Below, in pieces: positions 27,444-33,788 of a stretch of 64,000 nucleotides of DNA. The number at the start of each line of letters is the position of its first letter. The first letter of the stretch is position 1. A model generated the notes under the pieces. It worked only from the letters and a program-made list of their open reading frames with translations. It was not told the origin of the DNA and made no database searches. The stretch lies in the NCBI GenBank assembly GCA_947165275.1, contig CAMUZQ010000003.1, positions 1 through 64,000 of the forward strand, given 5' to 3'. The position numbers and the translations under genes were made by a program. The stretch is from an uncultured Lachnospiraceae bacterium (GTDB lineage Bacteria; Bacillota; Clostridia; Lachnospirales; Lachnospiraceae).

Positions 27444-28475
27444 TTAGTGCAATTTCGTCCGGCTCATTACGTATATGATGTCCCTGACATTAGTATCCTC
27501 CTGCATATCCCTGTCATCATATACATATAGATACAGGATGATCCCTTCGGATTTCACAGGCTGGAAGACCATCTCGACCCTGTAGGGAGACGGAAGTATC
27601 GCGCGGTCCTCATATCTGCCCTTGTAATAGCTGTATTTTTCTCCCGATCCGTTCTTTGTACTGCGTGACTCCATGGTAAACCGGTTAACATCCGCATCCC
27701 CGCCGAGAATATTCGTAATGATCTTTTTTTCCACCTGCACAGGATCGTTTATATCTTCCTTATCCACGAGCAGATCCTTGCTGAAATAGCAGACAAACAC
27801 ATTATCCGGCCGCACATCTGACTTCCCCTTCACATTAAGCACATAATGATATCCGTCAATCTCACCAAGACTGTTTTCCTTTATATTTCTTTCTGACGCA
27901 GTCCAGGAAGCCGGTATCCGGTAGGTGACCCTTCCTCCGTCCAGTGATCTTTCCTGAGAGCTTTTTCCGTCTATCTTATAGCCGTCGATGAAGTACCATT
28001 CATCCTTCGATGCTTTTTCGTCTCCCTCCGCCCGGCTCACGGAATCCGTATCCATCGTGAGCTCCTTATTGATCATCCCAAAGGACAGCTCTCCATAGAC
28101 CCTGACCCGGTCCCCTTCTTTTAATGAGGATATTACGGACATAGTGTCCTTATCCGATGTCCTGCATATTATTTTTTTATCCGTACCCTCTCCGGATATT
28201 CCTATTTCCTTATTATTGCCTTTCTTTGTACTGACCTGCCCCGTCAGAACAAGGTCTCTTCCGTTATATGTCTGCTTTGTCTTCTCATAATCCGAGGCCG
28301 CATCTCCAAGAAGCGTTCCGGCATCCGCAGACTCATATATCCGATGCTTTTTTACATCCAGCTCAACTGAGGTTTTCGTGAGTCCGAATCCGCCCAGAAA
28401 AAAACATCCCGTGATAAGGATAAGCAAAAAAAACAGTCCCGTTATCCTGTTTATAAATAAACTATGATTCTTCAT
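27444..28475 (-). CDS. Membrane-anchored extracytoplasmic protein with OB-fold-like region, ExbBD operon
   Basis: A 343-residue protein I do not recognise as a whole. One N-terminal helix (about 9-31, ITGLFFLLILITGCFFLGG) anchors it. At about 60-140 the pattern NGRDLVLTGQVSTKK, then SLKEGDRVRVYGEL resembles the tRNA_anti-like (OB-fold) domains found in exported Firmicutes proteins. The C-terminal 190 residues are mixed beta with no motif I can name. The gene overlaps the previous one by 14 bp and closes the ExbB/ExbD-type cassette. It may be the effector that the proton channel acts on, which is context inference only. The Cys at position 24 is not in a proper lipobox. Confidence 0.7.
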   Translation of the reverse strand: MKNHSLFINRITGLFFLLILITGCFFLGGFGLTKTSVELDVKKHRIYESADAGTLLGDAASDYEKTKQTYNGRDLVLTGQVSTKKGNNKEIGISGEGTDKKIICRTSDKDTMSVISSLKEGDRVRVYGELSFGMINKELTMDTDSVSRAEGDEKASKDEWYFIDGYKIDGKSSQERSLDGGRVTYRIPASWTASERNIKENSLGEIDGYHYVLNVKGKSDVRPDNVFVCYFSKDLLVDKEDINDPVQVEKKIITNILGGDADVNRFTMESRSTKNGSGEKYSYYKGRYEDRAILPSPYRVEMVFQPVKSEGIILYLYVYDDRDMQEDTNVRDIIYVMSRTKLH

Positions 28476-28914
28476 ATTCCGGCTCTATACCTGAATCCTT
28501 AAGCAGCCTGTCCACAGCTTCATATGTTTCCGAATCCGCAAAATCATCAATGAGTTTACAGCTTTTGATCCTGCTCCTGCTCCGACTGATATAAGCTTCA
28601 AGTCTGTCCAGGGTTATCTGCCTTTCATTCATGGTTATGTCCTGACCTCTGACGGATATCTTCAGCTCAAGGCCGTCCTCTTCGGGTACCTTGCTTTCCG
28701 AAACGGAAGCAGCTGAGTTGTCGGATACCTCACTCTTTATTGCGGCCTCATCATTTCCCTCCGGTCCCACGGGCTCTGACTTTATCGCTGCGCTCAGGTC
28801 GATAAGCTTTTTTTCCCCATAAAACAGCCTTATCTCCTTCCTTCCGAACCCCATTACCGCAAAGGTCAGGATAAGGAATGATATGATTATCATAAGCCGG
28901 TGCATTTTACTCAT
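28462..28914 (-). CDS. Single-pass membrane protein with ExbD-like outer domain (third ExbD-like subunit)
   Basis: A 150-residue protein. A hydrophobic segment (about 5-23, RLMIIISFLILTFAVMGFG) is followed by a low-complexity Ser/Glu linker. A domain at about 80-145 then has KISVRGQDITMNERQITLD and KLIDDFADSETYEAVDRLL. That strand, strand, helix, then aD...Y..v...L..SGI pattern matches the periplasmic domain of ExbD/TolR. Its helix lacks the channel Asp of true ExbD, so it cannot replace the proton-carrying subunit. It overlaps its neighbours by 8 and 14 bp, so the operon is tightly coupled. The ExbD-like reading is a pattern judgement. Confidence 0.65.
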   Translation of the reverse strand: MSKMHRLMIIISFLILTFAVMGFGRKEIRLFYGEKKLIDLSAAIKSEPVGPEGNDEAAIKSEVSDNSAASVSESKVPEEDGLELKISVRGQDITMNERQITLDRLEAYISRSRSRIKSCKLIDDFADSETYEAVDRLLKDSGIEPEYEES

Positions 28915-29458
28915 TCTTTTCTTTCCATTTCAGGTTTCTTTCATCCAGCTCTTCCTGTATGGCATGAAAGGTATTTGATGAAGCATATGCATCCACAAGA
29001 AGGATCGTCTGGCTTCTGTCTGTCCCGTCCAGGATCCCCTGCAGTTCATCTATCCCTTTGAGCTTTTTCCTATTGAGCTCTATTGTGGTTCCGGTGACCC
29101 GGATGTAGCTTTCATATCCCACGTCCTCCGACCAGTAGATTCCGGAGGAATCTATGCCGTCAGCATGAACACCTTCATCGCTCCCGGTCCCCCTCGGAAC
29201 ATACATCAGGAAAAGAGCTGTGCCGACTGACAGAGTCCCCATTATGATAAAAACAATACATACATCCCTTACAGCGCGGGTCTGTGATTCGAGCAGGGCC
29301 TTCCCCTTCTCGGAGGTTTCATAGAATAAATAGTCGTCCTTTCTCTTAAAGACGATCATCCAGGCCGTTTTTATCGGCTGAACCGCCAGCATTACAAGCC
29401 CTGCCAGACCGATCAGTATAAAGGCCACTCCTATGACTGTTAATACGGTTATCAGCAT
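28907..29458 (-). CDS. Two-pass membrane protein with ExbD-like outer domain (second ExbD-like subunit)
   Basis: A 183-residue protein. There are two hydrophobic segments (about 3-27 and 66-88) with a 40-residue charged loop between them. A C-terminal domain at about 115-180 reads YIRVTGTTIELNRKKLKGID, then ILLVDAYASSNTFHAIQEEL. This has the same order of strands and helix as ExbD/TolR outer domains and as the next gene product. I know of no named family with this layout. It lies 15 bp downstream of the true ExbD-type gene and overlaps the following gene by 8 bp. Confidence 0.65.
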   Translation of the reverse strand: MLITVLTVIGVAFILIGLAGLVMLAVQPIKTAWMIVFKRKDDYLFYETSEKGKALLESQTRAVRDVCIVFIIMGTLSVGTALFLMYVPRGTGSDEGVHADGIDSSGIYWSEDVGYESYIRVTGTTIELNRKKLKGIDELQGILDGTDRSQTILLVDAYASSNTFHAIQEELDERNLKWKEKNE

Positions 29459-29473
29459 AACGTCGGATCTTCT

Positions 29474-29983
29474 CTATTCCTTCTTAAAATAGACATTGTT
29501 ATTGGAAGCCTGCAGCTTATCGACAGCTTCTCTTATCCTCTTCTCGTCCCTGTACAGTATCCTCTCATCTCCCTGATTCAGCGAGAAAACAACAGGCTTA
29601 TCCCGGTTTGCGCTAATATACCCCTTCAGATATTCCTCAAGATCAGCATATTCTTTTTCCACATCTCTGCCGTTTAATGAAATGATATGATCCGTCTCAT
29701 CAGGACTCCCTGATATCCTGATCTCCCTGTTCTCGGGATCCTCCCTGTCATAGGTTGAGATCACGGTTACAAATGTATAATAATCATCTATCATTTCATT
29801 TCTGAGATCGTATTCCTTTTTCGCCTCGGCATACTCCTCCTGTATACTCAGGGTTTCCTCTTCCGATATCTTCTTTGACAGTATGGTCTGGGAAACAAAG
29901 ATCAGCAATATGATAAATATCACATCCAGCAGAGGAGTGAGGTCCAGAAGGATATTATTTGTATGCAGATGATTCCGTCTCAT
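29474..29983 (-). CDS. ExbD/TolR-type biopolymer transport protein
   Basis: A 169-residue protein. The N-terminal LLDLTPLLDVIFIILLIFVSQ carries the invariant membrane Asp (D20) that conducts protons in ExbD, TolR and MotB-like subunits. It is followed by a coiled-coil-like charged stretch and an outer-face domain ending in VVFSLNQGDERILY and a final helix. ExbD works as a dimer inside an ExbB pentamer and turns proton flow into motion. The gene follows the ExbB-type gene by 11 bp. In Gram-negative bacteria it would serve TonB or Tol-Pal; no such partner is encoded here. Family assignment good, role unknown. Confidence 0.85.
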   Translation of the reverse strand: MRRNHLHTNNILLDLTPLLDVIFIILLIFVSQTILSKKISEEETLSIQEEYAEAKKEYDLRNEMIDDYYTFVTVISTYDREDPENREIRISGSPDETDHIISLNGRDVEKEYADLEEYLKGYISANRDKPVVFSLNQGDERILYRDEKRIREAVDKLQASNNNVYFKKE

Positions 29984-29994
29984 GGCAGTCTTCC

Positions 29995-30558
29995 CTATTC
30001 TTCGGAAATATTATTGAGCTTTATGGCATTGTCCAGCTTCTTGTTATAGTCCGAAAGCATTATATCCGTATCATATATGGTTTTTGCCGGGAAACAGGTC
30101 GCAACGATCTTAAGCGCGATAGCAGCCACCAGTCCGAAAAAGGTTGTCGAGAGCGCAGTTCCAAGGCCGCTTATCAGGTTTTCGATCGAAGCCTCGTTTC
30201 CCTGCTGAACTACAAGCATGAGTCCTGCGACAGTGCCCAGTATGCCGAAAAGAGGAAATAAGGGTATTAATTGTGAATATATTTCATATTTCGAGCATGT
30301 CTGGTTAAAGCTCTTTTCATAGTCCCTGATCGTATCCGGAGTGACCGCTTCTCCCTCCTCTGCTTCATCGCTTATCTCATGGGTCTTTTTGTTTATGGTC
30401 GTCCTGAGATTCCTTTTGCTGCTGAGGGCATCCTCGATATGGCTTTTATGTACTGACAGCCTGACCCACAGCATGAGCAGTCTTATCAGGATAAATACAG
30501 CTGCTGTAACTATAAATACATTGCCAAATCTTTCAATTAACCCGAGAATAAATTCCAT
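29995..30558 (-). CDS. MotA/TolQ/ExbB-type proton channel protein
   Basis: A 187-residue protein of PF01618 type. There are three membrane helices: about 12-33, about 96-118 (LIPLFPLFGILGTVAGLMLV) and about 131-152 (GTALSTTFFGLVAAIALKI). The channel-lining threonines match T109 in LGTVAG and T138/T139 in ALSTTFFG. The long cytoplasmic loop lies between helices 1 and 2, as in ExbB/TolQ. With the next gene product it should form a stator-like proton channel. It starts 16 bp after the MATE-ATPase fusion gene. It is shorter than E. coli ExbB (244 residues) but has all core helices. Confidence 0.88.
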   Translation of the reverse strand: MEFILGLIERFGNVFIVTAAVFILIRLLMLWVRLSVHKSHIEDALSSKRNLRTTINKKTHEISDEAEEGEAVTPDTIRDYEKSFNQTCSKYEIYSQLIPLFPLFGILGTVAGLMLVVQQGNEASIENLISGLGTALSTTFFGLVAAIALKIVATCFPAKTIYDTDIMLSDYNKKLDNAIKLNNISEE

Positions 30559-30574
30559 GATCCTTACCTGCCTT

Positions 30575-32353
30575 TCAAATGTCCGCCTGACCGTTCAGCC
30601 TTATCGAAAGAACATTGAGTCCCAGAATGTTCTGATAATGCATTTCGGATGCCAGCCCCGACACGATGCGTATTCCGATATTACGTGTCTTATCCTTCTG
30701 ATCCATCATCCTGCTCCTCTGCTCTATGTTAAATGGAATGCAGTCATCCTTTATGGAAAGGATCAGCGTTTCAGGCTTGCAGGCTGCGCGTACCTGTACA
30801 TAATGCTTCCTGTTGTCGGCTGAAAAGCCATGCTTTATGACATTTCCTGCCATTTCCTCAAGGAAAAGACCGGAAAAGAAAGCCCTGCGCCTGTCTATTC
30901 CCCTTTCCTGACAGAATTCCTGCAAAGTTCTTGAGACGCCGATGACACCGTCCATATCATGCAGCGTGATATCTATATATTTATATACAGGCACTCCGAA
31001 ATCCTCAGGTATGGGCATTAGCTCATCAAGATTTTTGGGGAAGCCCTTATTATATATGCAGGCGTATATCAATACGAAGACGGGAGCGATAAGTCCGTTA
31101 AGCACAGTTGCCGTATACACCCCGCTAAGTCCCATGCTTCCTATGAGAAGCATCGAAAAAAGCACGGTACCTATCAGTCCGTCAAGCAGAGCCAGGATAT
31201 GCGCCGGTATGTGTCTTTCGGATGCCTGCCAGTAGCAGGAGAAATGTGACATAACGATACTCAGCGGCATACTCCAGGGAAGTATCCTGAAGCCCATCAG
31301 CGTCATCATATAGACCGGATCCGACGGATCCCTGTAATACAGTCTCGTAAGCGGCTCTGCCAGCAGCATGATGGCAAAAGCCAGCGCTGACAGTATCGGG
31401 ATGAAATTCAGCAGAGCAGTCTTCATGACTTCTGTCAGCGATCCGCGGTCTTCCTCCCCGACACTGACACTGATCATCATCCGTGAAACGACAACCATTC
31501 CGTCAGGAATGATCCAGAATAAGGACAGCAGGGAATTCGCAGCCGTATAGGCAGATATTCCTACCGCTCCCACATATGCGATTATCAGTGAGTTTACTGC
31601 AGCCCCCCTTACGGCGCGATAGGCATTGCCTGCCGCCCCCGGCACGCCGATCTTTATTATATCACAGGCCATATTCCATTTAATGCCCTTGACGGAAAAA
31701 TGCATCGGGGCATCCTTCCTCATAAAGCCGGGAACCTGTATCAGAAAATAAACCCATAATCCAAGGGACGGGGCAAGGGCAAGCCCCAGGGTCTCCAGCT
31801 TCATGACTCCGACAAAAAGATAGTTCAGGACAAAATTCAATCCAATATAAACAATACCTGCCGTCGTGGCCAGCCCGCCTTTATTGTCCAGAGACAGAAA
31901 GGCGGCCAGCTGACTGCCGAGAAACAGGGGGATGATACTGACCGCCTGGCCAAGCACATACAGGGTGAGCAGCCTGCTGATCTCAGGATCACCGGCCGCC
32001 GGCATAATGCTCCCCGCAAGTCCGAATACCAGATGTCCCACGGTGACTATAATGGCAAGGATCCCGGAAACAGCCATATCCAGAGCGAAAATATCCTGCA
32101 CACCTGCAGGATCGTTCCGTCCCATATGCTCTCCGCAGATGATGGTCGCGCCCCCGACCAGCAGGACCGTGACCGCCACAACAGCCAGGTTTACCGGAGA
32201 ATAAAGGCCCACAGCAGACATCGCCTTGACACCCACGAAATTCCCGGCAAAAAGACTGGAAACGATACCGTTTATCATCCCCACAGATGCCAGCAGGATC
32301 TGTACCGGCAGTAGTCTGAACATTGTTTTCTGTGTAAGCTTCGATCCTTCCAC
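30575..32353 (-). CDS. MATE family transporter fused to RsbW-like HATPase domain
   Basis: About 592 residues. Residues 1-440 are a MATE/MatE multidrug-type exporter with two six-helix bundles (LLPVQILLASVGMINGIVSS at the start, then VGVKAMSAVGLYSP, and GVPGAAGNAYRAVRGAAVNS at the second half). Residues about 455-590 are a GHKL ATPase of the RsbW/SpoIIAB type: FLEEMAGNVIKHGF (N box), LSIKDDCIPFN (G1-like) and RNIGIRIVSGLASE (G2-like). A fusion of a MATE exporter to a switch-kinase-like domain is unusual. The start is GTG 32353, six bases after GGAGGAG; the longer frame to 32428 lacks a site and overlaps the upstream gene. Its substrate is unknown. Confidence 0.88.
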   Translation of the reverse strand: MEGSKLTQKTMFRLLPVQILLASVGMINGIVSSLFAGNFVGVKAMSAVGLYSPVNLAVVAVTVLLVGGATIICGEHMGRNDPAGVQDIFALDMAVSGILAIIVTVGHLVFGLAGSIMPAAGDPEISRLLTLYVLGQAVSIIPLFLGSQLAAFLSLDNKGGLATTAGIVYIGLNFVLNYLFVGVMKLETLGLALAPSLGLWVYFLIQVPGFMRKDAPMHFSVKGIKWNMACDIIKIGVPGAAGNAYRAVRGAAVNSLIIAYVGAVGISAYTAANSLLSLFWIIPDGMVVVSRMMISVSVGEEDRGSLTEVMKTALLNFIPILSALAFAIMLLAEPLTRLYYRDPSDPVYMMTLMGFRILPWSMPLSIVMSHFSCYWQASERHIPAHILALLDGLIGTVLFSMLLIGSMGLSGVYTATVLNGLIAPVFVLIYACIYNKGFPKNLDELMPIPEDFGVPVYKYIDITLHDMDGVIGVSRTLQEFCQERGIDRRRAFFSGLFLEEMAGNVIKHGFSADNRKHYVQVRAACKPETLILSIKDDCIPFNIEQRSRMMDQKDKTRNIGIRIVSGLASEMHYQNILGLNVLSIRLNGQADI

Positions 32354-32384
32354 CTGATCTCCTCCACCTTTGAGATTTTTTATA

Positions 32385-33788
32385 TCATACAGCAGAAACC
32401 GGCCGGCAACAATTATGATCCGGGTCATTCCTGCCGTTATCCCACATTTCCCTCACGCATTCACTCAAACGGTTTAGATCCGTGGCAAGCGGTCTGAGCT
32501 TCTCTACAGCTTTTTTGTAGTCATTATACAGCTTATACCTGTATCTGTATGAATCCTGAACAGAGTTTCTCATTGTATAGCGGAGCTCGAAAATATAAGC
32601 AAGATATTCCCTCTCATCCATATTAAGTACACTGGGATAATCCAGGGCGGTAACGTTTCCGAAGGGAAGGAACAGGTCAGGTGTATACTCCGCATCATTG
32701 ATGCCAAACCGGCAGTGCTCGTATTCATTAAAGTGCACATATGTAGTATCCAGATACTCCGCCAGCTCATATGTGCGCCCGGCCATTTCCCAGGTTTCCT
32801 CAGGAAAACCGACGATATAAAATGCCATTGTCTCTATCCCGAGCAGATGAGCATGATCTGTAAGCTCCTTCACCCTCCTGATATCACCCTTGATACTGTT
32901 ATAATTTCTTAAGACTCCTGCATCTGCGGACTCGACCCCGAAGCATATCATCCCTGTTCCTGCATCCTTCATGAGCTGAAGGATTTCTTCATCCAGACCT
33001 TCTATTCTGGTCTCGCATACTATCCTGGTCCTAATACCCCGGTCGATGATCCTCTTTAAGAGCGCCTTTGTTATGTTTTTGTCCGCCGAAAAATACTGGT
33101 CTCTGAACTGTATCTCATCAGGCTCAAGCTCCAGAAGCTTTTCCATGCTTCCGGCCGCAGCTTCCACACTTTTTGTCCTGTAGCCTTCATAATACAGCTT
33201 ATAGGGGCAGTACAGGCACGACATCGGGCATCCCCTGCTTGCTGCAAGAGTCAGCCTCAGCCCCTTTGCCATATCCTTGTAGCCTTTGTAATTCACAAGG
33301 GTATAATCCGGGGCAGGCAGATGAACAAAGCCGTTCTTTATGTTTTTGACATATCTCAGGGCATATTCATCGACAGGCTCCTCTATGACCTCGCTGATAT
33401 ACGGGGCATTGCCGGTAAGCCATTTCTTAAGGATCTTTGCAGCAAGTCCGCAGATCTTTATATCCGCTTCGGGCATAAGCCCCCTTACGGCTTCAAGCAG
33501 CTTTAGATCGGAATGTATCGTCTGACCGGTGGTCTTAAGTATCACCAGGTTATAGATATCATTTTCGAGCTGTTTCAGCAGCTCATCGGGAAGCATCCTG
33601 TTTTCTACGGCCGCATCTATCACTCTGACCTGATATTCTCCGCTTTCGGAAAAAACAGATGCCGCTGTCAGAAACGTCAGATCCGGGTAAACATCATATG
33701 ATACCTGGAGCATCCCCAATTCTCCATGGGCATCACTGTGAATATTGAATCCATAATAGGGACGAAGAAACAAAACCTTTTTTTTCAT
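32385..33788 (-). CDS. B12-binding-type radical SAM protein
   Basis: About 467 residues. The N-terminal part ([15 protein letters not shown], then [23 protein letters not shown]) has the Rossmann-like layout of B12-binding domains; the His of DxHxxG is not obvious. The radical SAM core has [18 protein letters not shown] with the CxxxCxxC iron-sulfur ligands near 190, followed by [12 protein letters not shown] and [12 protein letters not shown]. Such enzymes perform methylations or other radical chemistry on lipids, peptides or small molecules. It leads the run into the MATE-ATPase and ExbBD genes (31-bp gap). The start is uncertain: ATG 33788 fits the fold, while AAAAGGAG lies before a TTG at 33812. 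Confidence 0.85.

Follow-up and report, generated by a model that had tools for sequence, protein, structure and literature searches.

The subject of this analysis is a gene cassette predicted to encode an ExbB/ExbD-type motor in an uncultured Lachnospiraceae bacterium (GCA_947165275.1). It lies within a stretch of 64,000 nucleotides (contig CAMUZQ010000003.1, positions 1 to 64,000), hereafter the window. Seven open reading frames on the minus strand between 27444 and 33788 were named A to G in the order of transcription: A encodes a radical SAM protein, B a MATE-ATPase fusion, C an ExbB-like protein, D an ExbD-like protein, and E, F, and G three further proteins. A preliminary description of this DNA had read all seven genes as one cassette, which holds for the window locus as far as could be seen; the conserved unit, however, is smaller and consists of the five genes C to G, which are found together in 67 of 80 relatives' loci. 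We consider it probable that these five genes encode a proton-driven envelope motor of the 5:2 type, the output of which passes through the heads of E and F and through G and acts on the cell wall or the cell surface. The seven genes are as follows:

Gene A, 32385..33788, minus strand: radical SAM protein (PF04055, 63.3 bits), an upstream neighbor outside the conserved unit.
Gene B, 30575..32353, minus strand: MATE transporter fused to HATPase_c_2 (PF01554, 46.3 bits; PF13581, 41.5 bits), a same-strand upstream neighbor outside the conserved unit.
Gene C, 29995..30558, minus strand: ExbB/TolQ/MotA-type channel protein of 187 amino acids (aa) with three hydrophobic segments (PF01618, 50.7 bits).
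Gene D, 29474..29983, minus strand: ExbD/TolR-type protein of 169 aa with one membrane helix and a conserved C-terminal domain (PF02472, 21.1 bits, below the cut-off).
Gene E, 28907..29458, minus strand: protein of 183 aa with a predicted two-helix hairpin and an outer head of ExbD/TolR fold (structural model).
Gene F, 28462..28914, minus strand: protein of 150 aa with one membrane helix, a juxtamembrane box, a variable linker, and a putative head (homology to E).
Gene G, 27444..28475, minus strand: protein of 343 aa, predicted to be anchored in the membrane at its N terminus and modeled with an OB-fold followed by a PsbP/Mog1-like domain.

The start of B was placed at the GTG at 32353, downstream of GGAGGAGATC, a strong ribosome site. 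With this start the spacings from A to G are gaps of 31, 16, 11, and 15 bp followed by overlaps of 8 and 14 bp, which confirms the gene positions and spacings as originally described. The G+C content of C to G (0.418–0.476) is near that of the window (0.474), so composition gives no sign of foreign DNA, and a foreign origin on this ground was rejected. A scan for promoters and terminators was too noisy for setting the limits of an operon.

A scan of contigs with a single ExbB sequence gave no matches. When named genomes were scanned with an alignment-based profile, 318 relatives were obtained, of which the best 80 loci were taken; the sample is therefore biased toward near relatives. C, D, E, F, and G are encoded in one order and on one strand in 67 of these 80 loci, with median spacings of 10, 3, −4, and 0 bp; starts were set in the scripts at the first start codon after a stop, and some overlaps are therefore overstated. 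Because the five-gene order recurs in so many relatives, the cassette is more than a chance arrangement. The expectation that the set stays together in Lachnospiraceae genomes was thus borne out for C to G and failed for A and B. The remaining 13 loci comprise seven that run into a contig end or break off close to one (L071, L089, L097, L105, L116, L126, and L135) and six with a shorter variant (L110, L111, L112, L117, L119, and L123); the assignments of L116 and L123, in which 517 and 583 bases are left, respectively, are less certain. Two loci were counted as five-gene loci despite unusual scores, L093 having F-type scores at both the E and F positions and L131 having the E and F scores swapped. 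Six loci (L068, L069, L084, L090, L113, and L114) are apparently the source records of the first profiles, and when these are left out the five genes are found in 61 of 74 loci. By name, 70 of the 80 loci come from Lachnospiraceae, and the other ten from Acetatifactor (four), Clostridium (two), Pseudobutyrivibrio, Candidatus Darwinimomas (Lachnospiraceae), a Clostridia bacterium, and a bacterium. The closest relative is L056, the C protein of which is 57% identical to that of the window. For the residue and segment counts given below, proteins were placed by their order at loci with five genes.

C matches the MotA_ExbB model PF01618 with 50.7 bits against a cut-off of 22.9, all 39 of the 39 aligned C members match it at E ≤ 0.01, and three hydrophobic segments are found in 75 of 80 relatives. 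Searches of Protein Data Bank (PDB) sequences with the C profile returned MotA (1.1e-8; the best MotA is 8gqy), ExbB (4e-6), and TolQ (5.8e-6). In a HMMER alignment to 5sv0, Thr109 (30232-30234) and Thr139 (30142-30144) of C fall on ExbB Thr148 and Thr181, with the numbering counted from the alignment, and both threonines are kept in all 81 sequences, that of the window included. The description of C as an ExbB/TolQ-type protein with channel threonines is well founded on these grounds. For D the match to the ExbD model PF02472 stays short of the cut-off in the window (21.1 against 25.4 bits), the alignment stopping at position 96 of 128, and 30 of 42 D members match at E ≤ 0.01. The membrane aspartate singled out earlier, Asp20 (29924-29926), is kept in 78 of 78 D proteins and aligns with the LLDV motif of TolR, a weak alignment at E 0.06; among PDB sequences the TolR match of D, at this value, was confined to the membrane part, and an unrelated flagellar hook protein scored slightly better (E 0.03). 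Neither hhalign comparison of D, with E or with F, was significant. A passage of PMC12905483 names three residues without which the Ton motor does not work: Asp25, Thr148, and Thr181. Judged from these alignments, C and D appear to form a motor of the ExbB/ExbD-TolQ/TolR kind with strictly kept motor residues.

This strictness bears on whether the cassette could be a vestigial remnant of a Ton or Tol system with no present function. Occasional Ton systems in monoderms are judged likely to be non-functional in the part of PMC12204202 that deals with them, which would favor such a reading. However, Asp20, Thr109, and Thr139 are invariant down to 22–23% identity with the window proteins, and the gene order and three extra genes have been maintained, so that we regard a remnant as extremely improbable.

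The three extra genes encode E, F, and G, and the outer domains of E and F had both been described as ExbD-like. E matches no Pfam family, and F has a single match at chance level (12.9 bits against a cut-off of 24); PDB sequence searches with the E and F profiles gave no clear match either. The head of E (residues 113-182, 28913-29122) was modeled with confidence as an ExbD/TolR-type fold, proteins of this type being the top four structure matches, and two hydrophobic segments are found in 70 of 71 E relatives. For F the assignment comes by homology to E alone: hhalign of E against F gave 99.1% and E 7e-19 over 72 columns, which suggests that the F head (residues 81-146, 28477-28674) is the same ExbD/TolR-type head as that of E. 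Its best conserved stretch is a juxtamembrane box at residues 25-46 (28777-28842), with conservation values of 0.56 in the box, 0.24 in the linker, and 0.44 in the head. Both E and F are without the Asp20 motif of D. Lipoprotein anchoring was considered for F and G and rejected as a family trait because a loose lipobox pattern is present in only six of the 74 F proteins and six of the 68 G proteins, the latter six including the G of the window.

A single hydrophobic segment is found in 66 of the 67 G relatives, and the only Pfam match of G is to an OB model below threshold (15.7 bits against a cut-off of 27). The G profile gave no clear match among PDB sequences, where OB-fold proteins appeared at E 0.01–0.03. 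Structural modeling resolved an OB-fold at residues 44-152 (28020-28346), supporting the OB-fold-like region noted before in this anchored protein, and a PsbP/Mog1-like domain at residues 167-343 (27447-27977). G is therefore modeled as a membrane anchor followed by these two domains. On the strength of such folds one could propose that the motor moves a lipid, glycolipid, or lipoprotein, with the PsbP/Mog1-like domain of G as a ligand chaperone and C-D together with E and F releasing or pushing the cargo instead of exerting a pull on the wall. Likeness of fold, however, shows no function, and OB and PsbP-like folds are common; moreover, no gene except that for an AIM24 protein occupies a fixed neighboring position in more than eight loci, where a minority of the neighbors were annotated. 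We therefore hold cargo movement to be unlikely.

In the envelope motor that we favor, C would form a pentamer around the helices of a D dimer, with both stoichiometries taken by analogy, and the passage of protons by Asp20 of D and Thr109 and Thr139 of C would turn or rock the complex. The output of the motor would then go to E, F, and G in place of TonB or TolA. Above the membrane, the E and F heads may form pairs, either with D or between themselves. F, in which a helix and a conserved box are joined by a flexible linker to a folded head, would be the likeliest force arm, and G, anchored beside E and F, the likeliest working end, its target being perhaps the wall, a surface polymer, or a lipid. 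The original proposal, a machine driven by protons and equipped with ExbD-like effectors, has so far survived testing; both an ExbB/ExbD-type motor and additional ExbD-like outer domains were found.

The accepted role of ExbB/ExbD and TolQ/TolR motors is to convey the energy of the inner membrane to the outer membrane. We found no matches in the genome of the window to TonB_C (PF03544; 3 of 14 control genomes match, Escherichia coli included), to the TonB-receptor plug (PF07715; 3 of 14 controls), or to Omp85, taken as a marker for the outer membrane (PF01103; 7 of 14 controls), in keeping with the statement that outer-membrane partners are absent. Because this genome is 96.01% complete and in 153 contigs, the absence of these families is strong and not absolute. 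TolA, TolB, and Pal were not found among the seven proteins by Pfam, a result confined to these proteins since no genome-wide search was made for them. The host cell seems to be without an outer membrane.

The cassette shares with the Ton system an ExbB-family channel with both essential threonines, an ExbD-type helix with its aspartate, and ExbD-type heads, and the layout of F, in which a helix is followed by a juxtamembrane box, a linker, and a folded end, resembles that of TonB. It differs in that its genome has neither TonB_C nor plug, in that two separate ExbD-like head proteins and G are added, and in that its host appears to be single-membraned. From Tol-Pal it is set apart by a genome without Omp85, by the five-gene layout, and by a cassette in which TolA, TolB, and Pal are not encoded. 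These comparisons leave room for a more specific and tentative proposal, which we hold possible without favoring it, that the cassette is the equivalent of Ton and Tol in single-membrane cells, with a force arm rebuilt from spare ExbD heads and working on wall or surface polymers. On this proposal F may use its juxtamembrane box to dock on a head, much as TonB docks on ExbD through its D-box. A minimal form would use one detached head; in the full form this head would have been duplicated into E and F and the two-domain surface protein G added.

A three-gene form, in which genes for ExbB, ExbD, and a head follow one another, is found at four loci (L029, L030, L032, and L033) and at L177 (genome G676), which belongs to another family of the class. 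At L027 a second, weak head stands beside this form, and the head at L033 matches the Pfam ExbD model weakly, its 16.9 bits being below the cut-off. G676 is also the sole strong match (80.8 bits) apart from the own genome when the C profile is run over 245 genomes of the class, where six matches were obtained, own genome included. The three-gene form looks like a minimal version of the same system.

The genome samples used in the distribution searches overlap one another. Within the family, C matches were found in 15 of 250 genomes, own genome included, and single-sequence searches around these matches identified the full set from C to G at L020, L021, L022, L023, and L024 and a partial set at L025, L026, and L028. 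Full-length G (more than 100 bits) is encoded in 13 of 397 family genomes, in one of which (G326) the listed piece matches the C-terminal half only; the other 5 of the 18 genomes matched by G gave OB-half matches. Two genomes of the same genus, G079 and G380, have no match to G. Samples of the order and of the class outside the family gave no full-length G and only partial matches, mostly to the OB half. In genome G111 two copies of the cassette (L021 and L022) occur on two contigs, within a block that spans at least 11.2 kilobases (kb) and is 99.93% identical between them; the block was either duplicated recently or doubled by the assembly.

This patchy presence, with two genomes of the same genus lacking G, is also what a phage-defense or damage sensor might show, in which a Zorya-like motor would serve as a sensor of the envelope. 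The cassette shares with Zorya a MotA/ExbB-family motor in an accessory system, and C matches part of the ZorA models (best values 3.3e-07 in PADLOC and 3.9e-05 in NCBIfam). However, C (187 aa) lacks a long tail, Pfam gives no OmpA-like domain in D, and the PADLOC scan of the seven proteins returned the partial ZorA matches to C only, with no ZorB, ZorC, or ZorD. The other six proteins match no Zorya component, and none of the conserved five has the look of a cytoplasmic effector. Identity of the cassette with Zorya was rejected on gene content, and we regard a Zorya-like role in defense or damage sensing as improbable. With the flagellar stator MotA-MotB the cassette shares the motor family, the top PDB sequence match of C being MotA (8gqy); it differs in that D, E, and F have no OmpA-like domain by Pfam and in that MotAB is encoded separately in the genome, at L001 (contig G000:C59), where two genes were read as flagellar-type MotA and MotB. 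The same genome encodes at L035 (contig G000:C6, 153-2731, minus strand) a long-tailed MotA/ExbB-like protein of 542 aa and a protein of 311 aa that was read as MotB/OmpA-like, a pair that looks similar to ZorA/ZorB. From L001, L035, and the cassette, the genome seems to hold three different motors of the MotA/ExbB family.

Varied non-flagellar homologs with extra domains of unknown function are described in the portions of PMC12505986 concerned with them. As far as these portions go, its clade of generic ion transporters (GIT) and the cassette have in common non-flagellar A and B subunits encoded in one operon and extra parts of unknown role; in the cassette, in contrast, the extra parts are separate proteins. 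These portions make no mention of such a cassette, and searching the text of that paper by word returned no Lachnospiraceae. The remark that no described system has this set agrees with our literature searches, which found none among open-licence papers. By analogy, the cassette would belong in its working to the 5:2 motor class and to no described system that was found.

Two upstream genes were excluded from the unit. B is a genuine MATE-ATPase fusion, as it had been called, since MatE (46.3 bits) and HATPase_c_2 (41.5 bits) are matched within one protein. The label B12-type for A was not upheld: A matches radical SAM families, some of them B12-type, and no B12-binding domain in Pfam. Both had been counted as parts of the system, and at the window locus A, B, and C are tightly spaced on one strand, as would be expected of a pathway in which the radical SAM protein modifies a product, the MATE protein exports it, and the motor releases it. 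Searches of the 80 relatives' loci, however, gave no match to A and no ortholog of B beside the cassette, and the A and B queries each found themselves as a control. The sole B match was a plain MATE protein of 451 aa (24% identity), which is encoded in L084 at a distance of two genes upstream. Of the 80 loci, 68 extend for 2 kb or more upstream of C, and the 12 that are shorter there could not show A or B; the 255 bases before ExbB in L056 contain no trace of MATE code. An ortholog of A (71% identity) is encoded in the same-genus genome G079, which is without the cassette, and has neither B nor cassette genes nearby. Matches to the MATE-ATPase fusion were found in 13 of 200 family genomes, four of which carry the cassette (the own genome, G041, G135, and G193). 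The corresponding co-occurrence, in which 3 of the 7 other cassette genomes compare with 9 of 192 (p 0.005 by Fisher's test), is a rough figure obtained after the fact with sample membership assumed, and it may reflect a functional link or shared ancestry. In G041, G135, and G193 the MATE-ATPase gene and the cassette are on different contigs. As no ortholog of either gene was found next to the cassettes of the 80 relatives and the A ortholog of G079 stands at an unlinked place, A and B were not retained as parts of the system, and a seven-gene pathway seems very improbable to us. Proteins that match the ATPase end of the fusion are also encoded off the cassette contigs, at G041:C32, at G135:C43, C3, and C14, at G193:C58, and at G000:C81. 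Near the A ortholog of G079, a repetitive surface-type protein of 2573 aa is encoded on the minus strand (L171, 11195-18916).

Whether and how orthologs of the Ton system work in Gram-positive cells is, according to a passage in PMC9389320, still to be tested. The cassette makes this question concrete, as it offers a full motor with strict residues, defined partners, and a minimal three-gene version, and hosts are probably in culture, since the records of Lachnospiraceae bacterium A4, AD3010, and AC2028 are not marked as metagenome-assembled. If it is true that C-D drives E, F, and G, the cassette would represent a novel type of work at the envelope in gut and rumen bacteria and would show how ExbD heads can be detached and reused. 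It is possibly an unstudied route to mechanical work on the surface of single-membrane cells.

The only gene that recurs widely beside the cassette encodes an AIM24 protein (PF01987), which is located directly upstream in 29 of the 80 loci, all between L096 and L135 and in a single part of the family, and is within 60 bp of the cassette in 27 of these 29 (PF01987 at 130–140 bits in the three tested). A single AIM24 gene is present in the own genome, on a different contig from the cassette. Such an association, together with the lack of a known load-bearing partner, could point to a regulated proton leak or a stress-signaling complex without mechanical output. However, the presence of ExbD-type heads and of an external protein with two domains agrees better with force or binding than with signaling, and no constant signaling neighbor is present among the genes seen; we give this explanation very little weight. 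A protein with a transglutaminase domain (tested in L058) is encoded upstream of the cassette in L057, L058, L065, L066, L067, L075, L088, and L091, together with what we take to be a DUF58-like protein in the same eight loci and, presumably, a MoxR-like ATPase in seven. Downstream of the cassette in L058, L064, L065, L066, L067, L075, L088, and L091 a putative lipoprotein of 646–667 aa is encoded, which in L058 matches DUF3298 above the cut-off and PdaC slightly below it.

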